Positions 11,763-32,187 of a stretch of DNA of 32,189 nt are shown here, piece by piece. Origin of the DNA: Deltaproteobacteria bacterium (GTDB taxonomy: Bacteria > Myxococcota_A > UBA9042 > DTJE01 > S145-11); contig WGCQ01000081.1 of NCBI GenBank assembly GCA_015493765.1, forward strand, positions 1 to 32,189, given 5' to 3'. The translations under genes and the position numbers were made by a program. The notes under the pieces are model-generated. The model saw nothing but the letters and a program-made list of their open reading frames with translations. It ran no database searches and was not told the origin of the DNA. Numbering within the stretch: the stretch's first letter is position 1; each line of letters opens with the position of its first letter.

Positions 11763-12755
11763 ATGGGAGCACAAAGCAAGGCGATCGCTATATTTTTGCA
11801 GGAATCGCAACACAGCAACTTCAGGCACGTCAATCCAGAGGTCAGCGGCGACGGCGATTTCGAGGTCAGCCATGTGATCAGGCCGCAACTGGGCGAGACC
11901 AACGTGGGCCTGCCCGTGTACTTCGAGCAGAAGGTCCAGAAGGTGGATGTCCGGGGCGGCGTGGTGCACATCGTACACCCCGCGGTGCTGGCCGATGCGC
12001 CGGTGCTGTCCACCACGTGGATACAGGTGGCCGAGGGCGCACACGCCACGATCATCGAGGAATTCGAGGGCTCGGACAGCGCGGTCCAGTCGGGCATTTC
12101 CGTGCTCACCGGGGCCAGGGACGCGGTGGTGGATTACGTGCGCAACATACGCATGCAGCAGGGCCGGGCCGGGATCTACAAGTGCGTGGTCGAGGCCCTG
12201 GGGCCGCAGGTCAGGGCATGGCAGATCGTTCGGGGTGCGGGCATCGCGGACTCGTCCATGAACATCCGGCTGCTGGCAAAGGGGGCAAACGTGGATTTGA
12301 TGAGCGTAACCCTGGCTCACGGCGATGCGGATGTGCACAACGACCTGTACACCACGCACGACGCGGCAAAGACGCATTCCCGGGTCATGGCGCGTGCCCT
12401 GTCCTTCGGGGACAGTCGAATCACGGCCAGCGGCAGGGCCGTGTTGCCGGACATTGCAAAGGGTGCGGAAACGGCCGTGGACATGAAGGGCCTGCTGCTG
12501 GGCCAGGGTAGTATCACCATGGTGCCCAAGCTGCGGATCAACCAGTTGGACGTGGTTGCAGGCCACGGCGCAGCCATAGGTCCCCTGGACCCGAATGCCG
12601 TGTTTTACCTGAACTCGCGAGGCATTGATCAAAATCAGGCACGCATGCTTTTGTTACGCGCATTCGTGATGCCCTTGATTGCCAATCTGCCGTCAAAGAG
12701 TATCATGGATGGGGTCATCAGTGACCTGGACAACCTGATTGGAGGCACCTCATGA
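11763..12755 (+). CDS. sufD: SufD-type Fe-S scaffold subunit
   Basis: This SufB paralogue should form the SufB-SufD heterodimer of the SufBC2D complex. The central beta-helix and the signature GHGAAIGPLDPNAVFYLNSRGI with its conserved His identify it. At 330 residues it is shorter than many SufD proteins (about 400-440), mainly because the N-terminal helical domain is brief. It starts 12 bases after sufB with AAGGAG at seven bases, and its TGA overlaps the next ATG by four bases (ATGA). Confidence 0.93.
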   Translation: MGAQSKAIAIFLQESQHSNFRHVNPEVSGDGDFEVSHVIRPQLGETNVGLPVYFEQKVQKVDVRGGVVHIVHPAVLADAPVLSTTWIQVAEGAHATIIEEFEGSDSAVQSGISVLTGARDAVVDYVRNIRMQQGRAGIYKCVVEALGPQVRAWQIVRGAGIADSSMNIRLLAKGANVDLMSVTLAHGDADVHNDLYTTHDAAKTHSRVMARALSFGDSRITASGRAVLPDIAKGAETAVDMKGLLLGQGSITMVPKLRINQLDVVAGHGAAIGPLDPNAVFYLNSRGIDQNQARMLLLRAFVMPLIANLPSKSIMDGVISDLDNLIGGTS

Positions 12756-14383
12756 GTTTTTCACCTGCGCAAATACGCCGGGATTTTCCCGTGCTCAGGG
12801 AGGGCAAGGTCCGTTACCTGGACAGCGCGGCCACTGCACAGAGGCCCGAGATCGTGATCCGGGCCGAGGCGGATTTTTATACCCTGATCGGGGCCAATGC
12901 GCACCGCGGGGTGTATGGCCTGGCCGTTGAATCCACCAGGCTCTACGAGGCGGCACGCGAGCAGATCGCGGGATTCATTGGTGCGGACACGGACGAACTG
13001 GCGTTCGTGCGCAATACCACGGAGGGGATCAACCTGGTGGCCCGGGCCTGGGCCGCACACCGGCTGGGACCGGGCAAGGCTATCGTGACCACGGTCATGG
13101 AGCACCATTCCAACCTGGTGCCCTGGCAGATGGTGGCCCAACAAACGGGCTGCGAACTGCGTTTCGCACGGATCACGCCCGAGGGCCTGCTGGACATGGA
13201 CCATTTGCAAGAGTTGCTGGACGAACGGGTGGTTCTGGTGGCCATAACACACGTTTCCAACGTCCTGGGCACGGCCAACCCGGTGGCGGATATTTGCAAA
13301 CTTGCGCACGAACACGGTGCGGCCTGCCTGGTGGACGGGGCCCAGGGCGCACCGCACAGGCAAGTGGACGTACACGCCATGGGCTGTGATTTTTACGCAT
13401 TTTCCGGGCACAAGATGATGGGTCCCATGGGGATCGGCGGGCTGTACATAAACAGGCAGCGCTTCAACGAGATGCAGCCGTTCATGGGCGGCGGCGAGAT
13501 GATCGACCGCGTGGAACTGTCGCACACCACGTATGCAAAACCGCCGCTGATGTTCGAGGCAGGCACGCAAAACGTGGGCGGTGCGGTGGGCATGGCCGCT
13601 GCGGTGCGATATTTGCAACGCCTGGGCATGCGGGAGGTGGAGGCGCACGAGAGGCTGCTTGGCGGGTATGCCAGGCAGAAACTGGCCAGGATACCGGGGG
13701 TCAAGGTGTTCGGGCCGGACCCGGATTCGGGTGGCACCGGCGGGGTGCTGACATTCACGGTGGATGGGCACCACCCGCATGACGTGGCACAATTTTTGGA
13801 CCATGCGGGCCTGGCCGTGCGGGCAGGCGACCACTGTGCCCAGCCTTTGCACAAGGTGCTGGGCGTCATCGCCACCACCAGGGCCAGTTTTTACATCTAC
13901 AACGAGATGTCCGATGCCGATGCACTGTCAGAGGCCGTTAGTGACATGCTGAAACACAGGGCCAGCGTGGTGCCGGGCGCATCCGATGCCATGGAAATGC
14001 TGGACTACTACTTTCGCAACCCGGTGGCCCGGGACCCGATCCCCGAGTGGGAGGTGGAAAAGGAAGGTGTAAACAGCCTGTGCGGGGATGAACTGACAAT
14101 AAGGCTGCACGTGGATGGGGCAGCGATAAAGGACCTGCAGGTGGAGGCCAGGGGATGCAAGGTCAGCCAGGCCTCGGCCTCGCTGGCAGCAGCCACGTTA
14201 AAGGGCAAGGCAGTGGACGAGGCCATGGAAATCATAAGCAAGGTACAGGCCATGCTGACAAACAACGGGCCGAAATTAGAGGGTGAGCTTGCGGCGTTGA
14301 ACCCTGTTGCGGACATGCCCGCAAGGCTGAAGTGTGCCCTTCTGGCGTGGAAAACCTTTGAGGAGGCTCTGAAGGATGTCTGA
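12752..14383 (+). CDS. sufS: SufS-SufU fusion: cysteine desulfurase with Zn/sulfur-acceptor domain
   Basis: Residues 1 to about 410 are a type II cysteine desulfurase: PLP lysine Lys221 (FSGHKMMGP), MEHHSN, and catalytic Cys362 (RAGDHCAQPLH). Desulfurase takes sulfur from L-cysteine as a persulfide. Residues about 415-543 are a SufU/IscU-fold domain with metal ligands Cys444 and Asp446 (LCGDELT), Cys469 (GCKVSQASASL) and Cys528 (RLKCALLAW). The 59-residue gap between the last two cysteines matches SufU, which has an insert, rather than IscU. In Firmicutes these are separate proteins and SufU accepts the persulfide from SufS through zinc. Here donor and acceptor are one polypeptide, and no sufE gene is present. 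Confidence 0.94.
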   Translation: MSFSPAQIRRDFPVLREGKVRYLDSAATAQRPEIVIRAEADFYTLIGANAHRGVYGLAVESTRLYEAAREQIAGFIGADTDELAFVRNTTEGINLVARAWAAHRLGPGKAIVTTVMEHHSNLVPWQMVAQQTGCELRFARITPEGLLDMDHLQELLDERVVLVAITHVSNVLGTANPVADICKLAHEHGAACLVDGAQGAPHRQVDVHAMGCDFYAFSGHKMMGPMGIGGLYINRQRFNEMQPFMGGGEMIDRVELSHTTYAKPPLMFEAGTQNVGGAVGMAAAVRYLQRLGMREVEAHERLLGGYARQKLARIPGVKVFGPDPDSGGTGGVLTFTVDGHHPHDVAQFLDHAGLAVRAGDHCAQPLHKVLGVIATTRASFYIYNEMSDADALSEAVSDMLKHRASVVPGASDAMEMLDYYFRNPVARDPIPEWEVEKEGVNSLCGDELTIRLHVDGAAIKDLQVEARGCKVSQASASLAAATLKGKAVDEAMEIISKVQAMLTNNGPKLEGELAALNPVADMPARLKCALLAWKTFEEALKDV

Positions 14384-18493: not shown

Positions 18494-19058
18494 TGTTCCC
18501 CTTTTCGTAAACCACGATCTCGTCCCGCTCGAATCCCATTTCCCGGAACTGTACCCTTACGGTCTGCGTGGGGTCGGCCTTCCTGACCGTCGTTGCAGCC
18601 AGGTCCGCGCAGATCGGATACTCCTTTGCAAGGCGGTCCACCAGGACCAGCAGCCTGATGAATGCGGGTCGTCCAAAATCGGTCAGGCTGTCCAGTGCGG
18701 CACGCACCGTCCTGCCCGTGTACAACACGTCGTCCACCAGCAATAACCCGCGACCGCTGAGGTTGAACGGTATGTTGGTTGTCCTGACATTGGGCTGAAC
18801 ACTGCCTTCGAACACGTCGTCCCTGTACAACGTGATGTCCAGCACGCCCAGCGGCAACCCGGGCAAACCCTGTTTTATCCTGACGTCGTTTATCCGGTTT
18901 GCCAGGAACACGCCCCCCGTCTGGATCCCCACCATGGCCAGGCCGTCGCATGCCCAGCGCTTGTCGGACTCCAGGGCAAGGTATTGCACGGCCTCTGTAA
19001 CACCTTCCGGCCCCAGGAGGTGTTCCTTTAGCCGGTAATCGGAAAATCTTTTTTTCAT
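18471..19058 (-). CDS. pyrR: PyrR, pyrimidine operon regulator / uracil phosphoribosyltransferase
   Basis: PyrR-type phosphoribosyltransferase with the PRPP loop [27 protein letters not shown] and [15 protein letters not shown], all typical. In Firmicutes PyrR binds pyr mRNA leaders and causes attenuation when UMP is high; many also act as uracil phosphoribosyltransferases. The leader here looks too short (about 14 bases from the predicted start site) for an attenuator, so control may differ. 195 residues is slightly longer than usual (about 180), with a polar tail. GGAG lies eight bases before the ATG. Confidence 0.93.
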
Positions 19059-19133: not shown

Positions 19134-19160
19134 ACCCCAACCCGACCAGGAGGTCTATTC

Positions 19161-19327
19161 CGTGACCGTGGGCCGTGACCGAGACCGAGACCGTGGCCGT
19201 TGTCCGTGGCCGTTGACCTGGGATCGCCGGCATCCTGCCGGCCTTTTCCGTGACCGTTGTCCGTGGGCCGTGACCGAGACCGAGACCGTGGCCGTTGTCC
19301 GTGGCCGAGACCGTTGCCGTGGGCCGA
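19161..19327. repeat. CGG-hexamer repeat array A
   Basis: A noncoding array of short units read on the plus strand as CCGTGA, CCGTGG, CCGAGA and CCGTTG (reverse complement TCACGG, CCACGG, TCTCGG, CAACGG). A segment of about 45 bases at 19168-19212 recurs exactly at 19263-19307, so the array grew partly by block duplication of about 95 bases. A GCCGGC hairpin lies between the two blocks. Related arrays occur at 28082-28209 and 31938-32030. Confidence 0.85.
19226..19242. repeat. GCCGGC hairpin inside array A
   Basis: GCCGGCATCCTGCCGGC: two GCCGGC arms around the loop ATCCT. The downstream flank CTTTTCCGTG is also found, in reverse complement, next to the hairpin at 32153-32169, giving about 25 bases of shared sequence. 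Confidence 0.8.
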
Positions 19328-19329
19328 CT

Positions 19330-19360
19330 ACCGAATTTGGACAGGTAATTTTGGTGCTAA
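19330..19360 (+). repeat. CAGGTAATT intergenic element, copy 1
   Basis: An imperfect inverted repeat, ACCGAATT at the left and AATTTTGGT at the right around the core CAGGTAATT (19342-19350), followed by GCTAA. It matches copy 2 at 28435-28466 at about 27 of 31 positions. It lies between array A and the promoter of the MepM-like gene. Confidence 0.65.
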
Positions 19361-19439: not shown

Positions 19440-20708
19440 ATGGACAGGCAAAGGATATACATAAAAGAGGGCAGACCGGGCAGGGGCAAGGCATTTGTAG
19501 TGGCCTCGCTGATCCTGGCGGTGGGTTTTCTTGCCGTCTGGGTCATCCTCCCTGGCCCCAGCAAGCCCCCGAACAAAAACGCCATCACAGTGCCTGATGC
19601 CTCCTTACTGCATACGCCGGTTATGCCGCATGCAGGTGCCAAAAATCCGCCTGTCATGTCCGCCGAATTGACCCTTGGCAGGGGTGAAAACCTGGGCACA
19701 CTGCTGCGGCGTTCCGGGGCCAGAAACATCGACATGCCAGCACTGATCGCGGCGTTGTCATCATTCCTGGACCTCAAAAACCTGAAGGTGGGCCAAAAGC
19801 TCAGGGTCTTTTATGACGCCAGGACCCACGATTTGCGCTCCGTGATCGTGCCGCTGGATGTCGTACGTTACGTCGAACTGAAACGCACAAAAAAGGGGTA
19901 TGTTAGCACCCTTAAACGCAAAAAGACCGTAACCAGCATCGTGTCCTTTGCGTGCATGATCCGCTACTCCTTTCACAGGAGCCTGTACAACTGCGGGGCC
20001 GACGCCCCGTTGGCCTCAACGGTCGAGGCCTTCCTGGCCAGGCGCATCGACTTGTTCAGGCAGGTCCGGCGCGGCGACGTCTTGCGACTGATCATCGAAA
20101 AAATATCCGTATCGGGGCGTTTTTTGAAGTACGGACGGATCCTGGCGCTCACCTACACGGGCAGGGTGGTCAATGAATCGGCCTTCTACTTCAAAGGCAT
20201 GCACTACGACCGAAACGGCGAATCCTTTGAAAGGCCGTTTTTGCCCTCCCCGCTGCAATACGCAAAGGTGAAGTGGGGTAAGGTGGCATACAAACAATCG
20301 AAAAAAAAGCACCGCCTTTCCATCGAATACTCGGTGCCCAGCCAGACCCAGGTGTTTGCGGTCGGTGATGGCAAGGTCCTGTTTTCCGGCCGTGACATCC
20401 GCCTAGGCAGGCAGGTGATCCTGCAACACCAGGACGGATATCGCAGTTATTATGCGCGGCTGGCATCGATCGCAAAAGGTGTCAGGGTGGGCACCATGGT
20501 CCAGCAGGGCCAGGTCATCGGCAGGGTGGGCAGGCACCCGTTGTATTTTGCCGTATCAAGAAACGGGATTTACAGGAAACCGAGTGTGCTGGGCAAAATA
20601 CAGGGCACCAGGCTGGACCCCGGGGAAATGGCGGCGTTTAAGTCAAAAATAAACAAACTTATCAAGCAGTTACAGGAACTTCCTGTGCGCAACAGTTACG
20701 GTCCATGA
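19440..20708 (+). CDS. MepM-like cell-wall protein with degenerate LytM domain
   Basis: The start is the ATG at 19440; the open frame extends upstream only through repeat DNA. One membrane anchor (about residues 18-36) precedes a LysM/OapA-like domain (about 75-160), a second domain (about 165-260), and a C-terminal M23/LytM domain (about 265-385) in the same order as E. coli MepM. The zinc and catalytic residues are all replaced: the HxxxD motif reads RLSIE (Arg292, Glu296), the YxHL histidine is Arg340 (YYARL) and HLH is Pro367-Leu-Tyr369 (HPLYFAV). It should not cut peptidoglycan. EnvC and NlpD are known dead LytM proteins that activate amidases, so a similar activator role is plausible. 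It overlaps the next gene by four bases. Confidence 0.82.
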   Translation: MDRQRIYIKEGRPGRGKAFVVASLILAVGFLAVWVILPGPSKPPNKNAITVPDASLLHTPVMPHAGAKNPPVMSAELTLGRGENLGTLLRRSGARNIDMPALIAALSSFLDLKNLKVGQKLRVFYDARTHDLRSVIVPLDVVRYVELKRTKKGYVSTLKRKKTVTSIVSFACMIRYSFHRSLYNCGADAPLASTVEAFLARRIDLFRQVRRGDVLRLIIEKISVSGRFLKYGRILALTYTGRVVNESAFYFKGMHYDRNGESFERPFLPSPLQYAKVKWGKVAYKQSKKKHRLSIEYSVPSQTQVFAVGDGKVLFSGRDIRLGRQVILQHQDGYRSYYARLASIAKGVRVGTMVQQGQVIGRVGRHPLYFAVSRNGIYRKPSVLGKIQGTRLDPGEMAAFKSKINKLIKQLQELPVRNSYGP

Positions 20709-25225: not shown

Positions 25226-27829
25226 TTACTGTGCGGGCAGGATCGCTATCTCGTCGATGCCAACGGCGTGTCCGTCACCACCCAGTACAGGGTCAACGCG
25301 GATCTGGTGGATTTCACCTACCCAGCCAGGTGTATTGCTCATGTCAATGGTGACGGTCTGTGTTCCACCGCCATTGCTGATATGCACCATGCGGTTCCAT
25401 GCCTCACGCAGTCCCCTGTCCCCAAACCGGTCCCAATAGACCTTGAGGTAGGACTTGTCAGCGGGACCATGGTCGTTTGCAACCTTGATGCGCACAATGG
25501 GGTGTGTGGCTGCTTCAATGCTGAGTTCCGGACTGGTCAACATGGGCTCCGGCCCCGGGACCTTGAATATCCACATCCCATTCGAAGGTCCGTTCGTCAG
25601 TTCCTGCCCGTTGGTCAGGGTCCAGCCTTCACGATCCCCATCAGTGTTAAAGCCAAATACCACTGGTTTAACGGGGCGACGCGTATAACGCAGGGACAGG
25701 TCTTTTACGCGCATGCTAACGTTGTTCAGGCCCGACACCTCCCAACCGATGTTCATGCCACCGATCCTGTAATCGGAAAGCACGTTCGAACCGGTCAAAA
25801 ATCCGTTGTCCCAGGCCCGCAGCAGGGCATCACGCATGGCAGGCAGGATGTCGCCCTGGAATGTCTGGCCGGGCCCGCCCACCTTGAGCCCATGGGTGAT
25901 GAAAGGTTCACCGCCCACGTTGTAGATCAGGCGTTCCGTACCGCCCTTATCCTGCATGATCACCTTTATTGGGACATCGTAGCGGTCGTCGTAGAATGTT
26001 ATGCCAAACCACAGGTAGTCGCCGAAACCGGGGCTTGATGTGTTTTGATTCTGAACCGTGAAATACACCAGGTACTGGGCCGCGTGGTAGGTGGAATTGT
26101 AACCGCTGCGTTGGTTACGATCCGCCTTCAGTAGTTGCGCGAATGCATGAAAATCGAGCCTGGCAATGGCTGACATCGGTGGCGACCCGGTATTGTAATT
26201 ACCCGGATAACTGATCTGCTGTTGTGCAAGGTGATACACCCAACCCTGCTGGGCGGATGGCACGTAATACACACCGCCGTATTCCACGTAGCCCTCCACG
26301 TCCGATATCAGGTCGCTTTCCGGTGTGCCTGGTGCACCTATGGTGATGCTTCCATAGATGTCTTGCCATGTTACGGACCCGTCAGCAAGCGTCTGAAGTG
26401 GCTGGTTATACAGGGTTGACTTGCTGTACCCCAGTGCCAGTTGCCAGACCGGGGCACCCTGGACCAGGCCTGACGGCATGGTTTTGATGGTAGCCCCTGT
26501 TTTGGGATTGATGGCAATGAAGCCCTTTGAAAAATGCCGGTCCCTGATCAGTTCGTTCGGGTCATCCGGGGGATACGTGGCCGTGCAGGTATTGTTGACG
26601 CAACTCAGTCCTGCGGCGCACCCGCAATCCGCCGCGCAGGTTCCGCAGTTTTCACCATATCCGGGTTCGCACTTACCATTCCCGCAACATGAGCCGCAAT
26701 CCCCAGGACAGGAGTGGCAGTTTTCGCCGTTGTTACAGGTTTTGTCCCCGCAATAGGGTTGGTTCACGCATTTTCCTGACACGCAGGCCTGGTGTTCGCC
26801 ACAACTACAGTTCAATATCCCGCCGCAGCCGTCCGAGGCCTGGCCGCACTCGATATTTAGGTCCTGGCAGGTCCTGGGCGTACAACATGCGGACTGGTAG
26901 CACACATCACCGTTCTTGCACCCGCAATCCTTGGCACAGGTTGCACAGTTTTCACCCAGTTCTGCCTGGCACTGGCCGTTTCCGCAACAACCGCCGCAAT
27001 CCGCCGGACAGGATGCGCAATTCTCGTCCGCCTGGCAGGTCCCATCACCGCAATAGGGCTGGGCCTGGCATTTCCCCGACACGCAAACCTCATGGGCCCC
27101 GCATGAGCCACAATCCAACACCCCGCCGCAGCCGTCCGATGCCTGGCCGCACTCTATACTTAGGTCCTGGCAGGTCCTGGGCGTACAGCATGAGGACTGG
27201 TAGCACACATCACCTTTCTTGCATCCGCAGTCCACTGCACAGGTCGCGCAATTTTCACCAAATTCCGCCTGGCACTGGCCGTTTCCGCAACAACTGCCGC
27301 AATCCGCCGGACAGGACGCACAGTCCTCGTCCGCCTGGCAGGTGCCATCACCGCAAAAGGGTTGTGCCTGGCATTTTCCCTGTTCGCAGGCCTGGTGCAG
27401 ACCGCACTGCCCGCAATCCACCTGGCCGCCACATCCATCCGGCCATGTACCGCATTCCTTGTTTAGGGTCTCGCATGATTCGGGCGTGCAGGATGCGCCT
27501 TCGTCCACGCTTGTATCCATTACCATATCTTGATCTTGATGGCCATTGTCCTGGATGGTATCCCGAACCGTATCACCTAACACATCAAAAACATCCGAAT
27601 CCACCAGAATGTCCGTTCCGTTTTCCCCCGGGTCCTGTGCGTTTGCATCGCCCTTTGCATCCACACCCACCACGCCAGGGTCCTTGTTACCCTGGTCCGG
27701 GCTCACCAGTACATCCCCTGACTTTGACAGGTCCCGTCCGGTAGATGCATCGGGGACCACTTGTATGTTGCTGCATCCCATGGCCCCTGATAGCAATCCT
27801 ACCAGGGCCAACGCATATAGCCTCTTCAT
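25226..27829 (-). CDS. Large lipoprotein with three Cys-rich repeats and a C-terminal jelly-roll-like domain
   Basis: The start is the ATG at 27829, seven bases after AGGAGG; the open frame runs 115 codons further upstream through repeat DNA and is not coding there. A lipoprotein signal (MKRLYALALVGLLSGAMGC) is followed by an Asp/Ser-rich linker (about 25-112). Residues 114-415 are three tandem repeats of 101 residues with about 22 cysteines each, containing CTPxxC, ECG, DGCGG, CGDGTC, CPADCG and CCGNGQC. From 430 to 867 lies an unassigned extracellular part whose end (FNTDGDREGWT, then SPELSIEAATHPIVRIKV) resembles carbohydrate-binding-like beta-sandwich modules. It is probably a surface adhesin or enzyme-associated protein. 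867 residues in all. Confidence 0.82.
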   Translation of the reverse strand: MKRLYALALVGLLSGAMGCSNIQVVPDASTGRDLSKSGDVLVSPDQGNKDPGVVGVDAKGDANAQDPGENGTDILVDSDVFDVLGDTVRDTIQDNGHQDQDMVMDTSVDEGASCTPESCETLNKECGTWPDGCGGQVDCGQCGLHQACEQGKCQAQPFCGDGTCQADEDCASCPADCGSCCGNGQCQAEFGENCATCAVDCGCKKGDVCYQSSCCTPRTCQDLSIECGQASDGCGGVLDCGSCGAHEVCVSGKCQAQPYCGDGTCQADENCASCPADCGGCCGNGQCQAELGENCATCAKDCGCKNGDVCYQSACCTPRTCQDLNIECGQASDGCGGILNCSCGEHQACVSGKCVNQPYCGDKTCNNGENCHSCPGDCGSCCGNGKCEPGYGENCGTCAADCGCAAGLSCVNNTCTATYPPDDPNELIRDRHFSKGFIAINPKTGATIKTMPSGLVQGAPVWQLALGYSKSTLYNQPLQTLADGSVTWQDIYGSITIGAPGTPESDLISDVEGYVEYGGVYYVPSAQQGWVYHLAQQQISYPGNYNTGSPPMSAIARLDFHAFAQLLKADRNQRSGYNSTYHAAQYLVYFTVQNQNTSSPGFGDYLWFGITFYDDRYDVPIKVIMQDKGGTERLIYNVGGEPFITHGLKVGGPGQTFQGDILPAMRDALLRAWDNGFLTGSNVLSDYRIGGMNIGWEVSGLNNVSMRVKDLSLRYTRRPVKPVVFGFNTDGDREGWTLTNGQELTNGPSNGMWIFKVPGPEPMLTSPELSIEAATHPIVRIKVANDHGPADKSYLKVYWDRFGDRGLREAWNRMVHISNGGGTQTVTIDMSNTPGWVGEIHQIRVDPVLGGDGHAVGIDEIAILPAQ
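26585..27490 (-). repeat. Three tandem 303-bp coding repeats
   Basis: The three Cys-rich units begin at residues 114, 215 and 316, an exact 101-codon period. Repeats 1 and 2 are nearly identical in the CGDGTCQAD-CASCPADCG segment, and repeats 2 and 3 in CCTPRTCQDL-IECGQASDGCGG, indicating recent duplication or homogenisation. Confidence 0.85.
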
Positions 27830-28034: not shown

Positions 28035-28075
28035 GCCGGCGAGACGCCGGCGAACCGAGCAGGCCAGCGGCCTGC
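28035..28075. repeat. Two adjacent palindromes before array B
   Basis: GCCGGCGAGACGCCGGC (28035-28051, loop GAGAC) is followed by GCAGGCCAGCGGCCTGC (28059-28075, 7-bp arms, loop AGC). Both can form stable hairpins. The second is followed by GCTCCA, as is a matching segment (GGCCTGTGCTCCA) near 28360. Confidence 0.75.
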
Positions 28076-28081
28076 GCTCCA

Positions 28082-28209
28082 CACGGCCAACGGCCACGGA
28101 CTCGGCCAACGGTCACGGCCAACGGCCACGGCCAACGGTCTCGGCCAACGGCCACGGCCAACGGCCACGGCCAACGGTCTCGGCCAACGGTCTCGGCCAA
28201 CGGTCTCGG
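28082..28209. repeat. CGG-hexamer array B, eight 13-bp units
   Basis: From 28106 to 28209 there are exactly eight 13-base units, each CCAACGG followed by a variable hexamer: TCACGG, CCACGG, TCTCGG, CCACGG, CCACGG, TCTCGG, TCTCGG, TCTCGG. Less regular units precede it. The period is not a multiple of three and every frame gives low-complexity protein, so it is noncoding. Confidence 0.9.
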
Positions 28210-28215
28210 AAAATA

Positions 28216-28308
28216 CGGGCGAAACGAGTGTGTTGATTTGATGGATTTATAGACGAATTCGGATTTTTGTGTGTTTTGTAATAGTTTGAAATACAAAAAT
28301 AATTCAAG
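28216..28308. other. AT-rich spacer in the repeat region
   Basis: An AT-rich stretch between array B and the next palindrome. I see no gene, promoter of quality or stable hairpin in it. Confidence 0.3.
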
Positions 28309-28407
28309 ATGCCGGCTGGAAGCCGGCGATCCCAGGGGGAACTTTGTAACACCCTCCAGAGGCCTGTGCTCCAACGGGGGCCATCCACACCCTCTTCCAG
28401 CCGGCAT
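28309..28407. repeat. Long inverted repeat of about 99 bp with internal hairpin
   Basis: ATGCCGGCTGGAAG (28309-28322) and its exact reverse complement CTTCCAGCCGGCAT (28394-28407) enclose 71 bases. Inside the left end, GCCGGCTGGAAGCCGGC forms the alternative short hairpin of the same family as the others. The unit could fold as one long stem with a 71-base loop or as a short hairpin. Confidence 0.75.
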
Positions 28408-31937: not shown

Positions 31938-32030
31938 GTCACGGCCACGGCCCCACTCGGCCAACGGCCAACGGTCTCGGCCCCGGTCAACGGTCTCGGC
32001 CCCGGTCAACGGTCAACGGTCAGCGGTCAC
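31938..32030. repeat. CGG-hexamer repeat array C
   Basis: Irregular units CGGCCA, CGGCCC, CGGTCT and CGGTCAA follow each other after the amylase gene. The vocabulary is that of arrays A and B on the same strand as B. CGG-CCCCGGTCAACGG-TCT is itself repeated once. Confidence 0.85.
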
Positions 32031-32063
32031 TGAATTCTGGCCTCTGGTATCGGGTCTCGGGAC

Positions 32064-32099
32064 GCAGCCTGCGGCTGCTGCGGGACGGCCCTGCGGGCC
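32064..32099. repeat. Paired GC-rich palindromes
   Basis: GCAGCCTGCGGCTGC (32064-32078) and GGCCCTGCGGGCC (32087-32099) are perfect arms of six and five bases around TGC loops. They resemble the GCAGGCC-AGC-GGCCTGC palindrome at 28059 in layout. Confidence 0.7.
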
Positions 32100-32130
32100 T
32101 TGCGGGAAGGCTTCAGTTGCAACCGAAAAC

Positions 32131-32187
32131 TCCGGCCACGGCCACGGAAAAGGCCGGCAGGATGCCGACCCCACTCGGCCACGGTCA
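32131..32187. repeat. Repeat array C continuation with GCCGGC hairpin
   Basis: CGGCCA units flank GCCGGC-AGGAT-GCCGAC (32153-32169). In reverse complement the hairpin and its flank match the one at 19226-19252 over about 25 bases apart from one changed arm base. The array runs off the window edge. Confidence 0.75.

Follow-up and report, generated by a model that had tools for sequence, protein, structure and literature searches.

Intergenic short-unit arrays of a deltaproteobacterial genome as probable gene-less members of an IVS-type selfish repeat family

Based on a survey of the genome from which the window derives (the window being the whole 32,189-nucleotide stretch of DNA analysed), we identified its three intergenic arrays of short units as part of a genome-wide, polar, composite repeat family rather than as loose units. 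These arrays are probably members without a four-helix-bundle (FHB) gene, whether solo, decayed or non-autonomous, of an IVS-type selfish repeat family that has expanded in this lineage and whose coding member is an S23/IVP (PF05635) FHB gene; we infer that they originated as FHB-less derivatives. In other bacteria the FHB gene and its flanking repeats are present or absent as a block, so the window repeats probably represent the non-coding portion of a selfish element that has gone unnoticed and has no known transposase. This link to FHB genes is invisible from the window alone, and emerged from the wider genome search.

The three intergenic array regions reported in the initial annotation are real (19160-19327, 28081-28209 and 31938-32030; for arrays, “+” denotes the CCG strand). 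The first lies between divergent predicted genes, one ending at 19058 (-) and the other starting at 19440 (+), and consists on the plus strand of an array of 6/7-nt units (19160-19218; CCGTGA, CCGTGG, CCGAGA, CCGTTGT and others), a hairpin module (CCTGGGATC-GCCGGCATCCTGCCGGC-CTTTTCCG; 19217-19250) with a 7-bp stem and a 3-nt loop (-16.6 kcal/mol, z -2.8), and a second array block (19248-19327). The latter contains a 50-nt block duplicated from 19163, the copies being 95 bp apart and 98% identical, which bears out the growth by block duplication that had been proposed. On the minus strand, the second region comprises a GCCGGC-GTCTC-GCCGGC hairpin (28035-28051; GAGAC on plus), adjoining a GGAGCGCAGGC-type hairpin, GGAGCGCAGGCCGCTGGCCTGC, and the longest array of the window (28081-28209), with a 13-bp super-period of 7+6 nt units. 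Also on the minus strand, the third region combines an array for which period analysis gave a 19-bp period of CTCGGCCCCGGTCAACGGT (31938-32030), a copy of a 93-nt double-hairpin module (32050-32110; GGCCCGCAGGGCC and GCAGCCGCAGGCTGC stems), and a further hairpin module (32138-32169) that is 97% complementary to 19228-19257.

GCCGGC-N5-GCCGGC hairpins with differing loops had been described at these regions, and those with ATCCT (19226-19242), GAGAC and TGGAA loops were recovered as such, while the AGGAT hairpin (core 32153-32169) is imperfect, with GCCGAC as its second arm. Allowing one mismatch, the window holds four hairpins against 0.35 expected, a number reached in none of 100 shuffles. 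RNA folding resolves the 5-nt loop of the initial description into an extra base pair and a 3-nt loop, and the TGGAA hairpin (28311-28327) sits inside a 131-bp terminal-inverted-repeat (MITE-like) element at 28226-28356. Elements of equal 131-bp length recur at several other loci (L003, L010, L011, L015 and L063), with ends GAG(G/T)GTGTTGA...TCAACACCCTC; two of these other copies show a clear 6-bp target duplication (GGCCTC), and both are inserted in the GGAGCGCAGGC hairpin. Another terminal-inverted-repeat insert (CATGGTTAATATCTATTTAGCAGTAAGC...GCTTACTGCTAAATAGATATTAACCATG) was observed within an array elsewhere in the genome (L014, contig C32, approximately 12630-12900).

A role as RNA elements had also been raised for the arrays. 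Folding of the three window arrays gave z-scores of -3.1 (minus strand of 28081-28209), +1.7 and +1.0 relative to shuffles, such that only one array of three beats them, and RNA structure was rejected as a selected feature of the arrays. Because folding is this uneven, solo arrays are not proposed to act as RNA. No Rfam match above the gathering score was found in the window or at loci L055 and L060, so no known RNA family was identified there.

Searches of the whole genome (3.57 Mb in 279 contigs, 96.75% complete, contamination 2.87%) identified 123 GCCGGC-N5-GCCGGC hairpin cores and 768 array signatures, defined as the 16-nt pattern CCGWGRCCGTTGRCCG (393 and 375 on the two strands), with zero matches to the reversed-pattern control in either case; the three window copies are therefore not the only ones. 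The family is also lineage-specific: no more than four signatures occur in any of 51 further genomes from the class, and 1 of 35 other genomes examined has the main hairpin type. Among 84,980 species genomes, a 25-nt array pattern was found in one other organism, an Acidobacteria MAG, and a specific hybrid pattern had no match outside the genome of origin. For close reading we used 21 genome stretches (378 kb), selected in part for hairpin content and having 1.5 times the array density of the genome, with genes called by a simple coding-potential gene caller. In agreement with the annotated avoidance of coding DNA, 460 of 464 array signatures, all 24 hairpins and all 25 double-hairpin modules in this sample lay outside predicted genes. 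Rescaling from the 46 clusters sampled, which account for 121 of the 768 signatures, suggests about 290 clusters occupying some 1.5% of the assembly, both figures being estimates because contigs break at repeats.

Closer inspection of these loci revealed a consistent anatomy. The unit vocabulary is small (CCGTGG, CCGTTGG, CCGTTGA, CCGAGA, CCGTGA, CCGAGT, CCGAGG), whole blocks are duplicated and unit order is variable, with constant joints where modules sit between array blocks (e.g. ...CCGTGTGGGGCCGGCATCCTGCCGGCCTTTTCCG...). Arrays do occur in either orientation, as annotated, but only between loci; within a locus they are strand-pure, with 33 of 33 intergenic loci on a single strand. The short units are likewise joined to hairpins, as first proposed, the hairpins being modules of a polar composite: four module types share the orientation of the array in ratios of 20:1, 31:2, 21:0 and 8:0 (same:opposite). 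Further modules extend the composite, including the module GGAGCGCAGGCGGCCTCGCCTGC (112 matches genome-wide with up to two mismatches), the 93-nt double-hairpin module (53 matches) and the MITE-like inserts. Replichore polarity was rejected as a cause of strand purity, since arrays on one contig can differ in orientation. Arrays were often bordered on the outside by a further dispersed sequence, GGCTCGGCGTGCCGGCGGGGGAGGGCCCATGCG... (L057:89, L059:14935, L061:19103, L005, L013, L111, L113 and L115).

The array of the Acidobacteria MAG, which uses the same vocabulary, lies directly 5' of an FHB gene with a hairpin leader. In the genome of origin we identified 17 matches to PF05635 (23S rRNA IVS protein), with PF05635 and TIGR02436 matches confirmed on individual proteins; most lie at contig ends, as would be expected of repeats at which an assembly breaks. 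Arrays were found within 500 bp of 14 of these 17 genes, many of whose flanks are cut off, compared to 73 of 278 random genes (Fisher p 5e-6), and the remaining three copies adjoin a hairpin module, a MITE-like insert or a double-hairpin module. Two main gene types, A and B, show 86-98% identity within type, and one divergent copy (L100) is close to neither. Among 14 copies for which orientation relative to the array could be scored, all nine of type A are on the CCG strand of the array, and the other five, comprising four of type B and the divergent copy, are on the opposite strand. Type A genes are preceded by a leader of about 156 nt predicted to fold into a long hairpin that encloses the Shine-Dalgarno sequence (-74 to -85 kcal/mol), and comparable hairpin leaders were seen in two further cases, the Acidobacteria MAG and a different genus of the phylum. 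In the latter (G062, L161-L165), FHB genes lie as convergent pairs between CACTGG-type hexamer arrays of a single orientation, and both genes of a pair have a long hairpin leader. No FHB gene is found at any of the three window loci, and the comparison of about 290 array clusters to 17 visible FHB matches indicates that most arrays spread or persist without one.

The arrangement of an FHB gene between short arrays extends to other genomes. Among 48 FHB loci, 28 carry short tandem arrays (period 5-24) in both 450-bp flanks compared to 8 of 311 random windows, a ratio inflated to some degree because the random windows were not matched for intergenic position; arrays in at least one flank were found at 43 of 48 and 82 of 311, respectively. 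For loci with arrays on both sides, the downstream unit fits the reverse complement of the upstream unit better than a direct copy in 18 of 20 cases, and units taken from other FHB loci almost never fit. The unit is therefore common within a locus and different between loci, the typical flanks being inverted heptamers. This unit-orientation test replaced a shared 8-mer statistic for inverted flanks, which was dropped as too noisy in high-GC DNA. In the genome of origin the arrays near FHB genes lie on one strand (direct), so inverted flanks are not seen there, and only two of its FHB copies are flanked by sufficient sequence for two-sided arrays to be seen.

Named plasmids of cyanobacteria, Azospirillum, Gemmatirosa and Riemerella provided a further comparison, with the flanks of other genes as the control. 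Arrays of 6-8 nt units (or multiples thereof) occupy both 150-bp flanks of 12 of 14 FHB genes, ten of them inverted, against 1 of 41 other genes; a plasmid search with the FHB protein of the genome of origin as query returned no match. These plasmid genes lie in cas6/cas4, cas10/cmr3-family and nrdB/nrdA gaps and beside sufB, and the copy of Azospirillum lipoferum 4B lies inside a 23S rRNA gene, flanked by inverted heptamers, i.e. a classical IVS. Three of the units (L177, L178, L180) are inserted in type I-D and III-B CRISPR-cas operons carried by cyanobacterial plasmids. Empty counterparts were identified for four cyanobacterial sites: in a relative whose flanks are 85-95% identical, the FHB gene is missing along with both arrays, such that gene and arrays are present or absent as a single unit. 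Insertion is the simpler reading, as sites and units differ, and precise loss could in principle produce the same pattern. The earlier suggestion that the arrays could be mobile is upheld in that form, spread within the genome of origin being presumed.

The leading alternative is that the arrays are minisatellites grown by slippage in permissive intergenic DNA, on which FHB cassettes and MITEs merely co-land. Block duplications and variable unit order fit such growth, and MITE-like elements do insert into modules. We nevertheless regard this account as unlikely: the orientation of gene to array is fixed in 14 of 14 copies, the four cyanobacterial empty sites lack both arrays as well as the gene, the same arrangement recurs with unrelated units in other phyla, and a lineage-specific vocabulary is held fixed across many contigs.

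It is also rather improbable that the family is a REP/BIME-type mosaic, in which palindromic modules are moved by an IS200-like RAYT transposase and the CGG units are mere linker. The GC-rich hairpins do resemble REP palindromes in a clustered intergenic mosaic, and array loci are enriched in convergent gene gaps (12 of 24 versus 21 of 112, p=0.003). However, a search for Y1_Tnp (PF01797) found no match in the 96.75% complete genome and was positive in 5 of 14 control genomes, the modules carry neither of the end tags, GTAG and CGTC, by which REPs are defined (PMC3733652), and array signatures far exceed hairpins (768 versus 123). The initial annotation had likewise set the arrays apart from REPs, and also from CRISPR, a distinction upheld by their continuous 6/7-nt units without spacers. 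A diversity-generating retroelement was also considered and rejected, as no RVT_1 was found in the genome and the Avd model matched the FHB protein of a relative only weakly (20.7 bits, cut-off 80).

That the arrays are regulatory or chromosome-organising sites under selection, such as protein-binding arrays, terminators or nucleoid elements, appears very improbable. Their intergenic location and excess in convergent gaps would suit such a role, as would the one array strand that folds better than shuffles; conversely, inspection showed no relation between array orientation and the strand of neighbouring genes, orientation switches along one contig, shuffles fold at least as well as two of the three window arrays, and the family is absent from order-level relatives. 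The protein-binding or nucleoid function put forward in the initial annotation found no support in any test run here. An assembly or binning artefact can be practically dismissed, since many contigs, including that of the window, do terminate in repeats, as expected where repeats break an assembly, yet many arrays are contig-interior between predicted genes and contamination is 2.87%.

For the preferred reading of the arrays as members of an IVS-type selfish family, the following model is offered. In a complete unit, the FHB gene would lie between two short-tandem-repeat arrays, in many cases preceded by a long hairpin leader in which the ribosome-binding site is buried. Most bacteria would carry the two arrays as inverted copies of a single 6-8 nt unit, and in the present lineage the arrays would be co-oriented, having expanded into polar mosaics that include hairpin modules. 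Individual loci may grow through slippage and unequal exchange between tandem units, as the block duplications suggest, and new loci may arise when the unit is copied into intergenic DNA, a mode of spread consistent with the presence and absence seen in cyanobacterial plasmids and presumed for the genome of origin. In the copying step that we judge likeliest, an S23/Avd-like FHB oligomer would bind the unit as a folded single strand or as RNA, with host replication or repair putatively performing the copying. The FHB proteins resemble the Xanthomonas S23 protein (PDB 2GSC), which is pentameric (PMC4990558). IS200-like and reverse-transcriptase routes are unsupported given that neither Y1_Tnp nor RVT_1 was found in the genome, which is 3% incomplete; RVT_1 was also not found in several other genomes with multi-copy FHB genes. 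By analogy to the Coxiella 23S IVS, transcribed inverted arrays may form a stem cleavable by RNase III, which would explain the tolerance of units inside operons and rRNA.

Among known systems, the 23S rRNA IVS with an S23p/IVP ORF (Leptospira, Coxiella) shares the protein family (PF05635/TIGR02436), and in Coxiella two or three tandem heptamers (GACAGAT) precede the S23 ORF, with RNase III excision reported (PMC4990558). Whereas an IVS lies inside 23S rRNA and is excised from the transcript, the window loci lie between protein genes, and are therefore described as related to IVS elements rather than as an IVS. In further contrast, most FHB copies found are intergenic or inside operons, and the genome of origin has direct, mosaic arrays in vast excess over the gene. 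Intergenic heptamer repeats, among them cyanobacterial STRR, TAACTGA in Beggiatoaceae (PMC4679880) and GGGAATC in Xanthomonas (PMC4692102), the latter with about 70 close inverted pairs (PMC4692102), are likewise dispersed, intergenic and tandem, unlike the mixed 6/7-mers with hairpin modules described here. Term searches of these two papers gave no hit for S23 or four-helix proteins. REP/BIME systems with RAYT (PMC3733652) present a similar mosaic of short palindromes in intergenic clusters, but the genome of origin has neither the RAYT nor the GTAG/CGTC tag, and tandem arrays dominate. Compared to foldback transposons (Drosophila Galileo, PMC3573991), the FHB unit is only about 0.45 kb, bacterial, without a transposase, and varies in unit by locus.

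The family is probably best placed with IVS-type selfish elements, and there is a sizeable chance that a separate class would be warranted. More tentatively, and at somewhat less than even probability, bacteria may widely harbour a class of mobile element that lacks its own transposase, recombinase or reverse transcriptase, comprising an FHB gene between arrays of a locus-variable unit and recognised by structure rather than sequence, of which classical 23S IVSs, many orphan FHB genes and many dispersed heptamer repeats would be forms and the present genome an extreme expansion. Within the open-access literature (subscription journals and preprints being outside the scope) we found no paper joining heptamer repeats with IVSs; the link described here joins both with orphan FHB (S23) genes of unknown function. 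If the unit truly moves without its own recombinase, it raises the question of how a DNA element bordered by repeats of variable sequence copies itself. As a practical rule, FHB genes should be sought beside intergenic 6-8 nt arrays, and those inside operons (CRISPR, suf, nrd) regarded as likely selfish inserts.

Several minor observations were also made. In a genome of the same class and another family (G015; L046, L048), the GCCGGCTTCCAGCCGGC hairpin is found again beside a different hexamer array (CACGGG), a parallel example with no clear FHB gene nearby. A short repeat, CCGAATTT(A/G)(G/T)(A/T)CAGGTAATTT, occurs in 12 copies in the 378-kb sample, all intergenic, and at window positions 19331 and 28437, where it adjoins arrays in both cases. 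Finally, window positions 26807-27409 contain a 300/303-bp coding tandem repeat within a large gene with repeated Cys-rich segments of CGDGTCQADE type.
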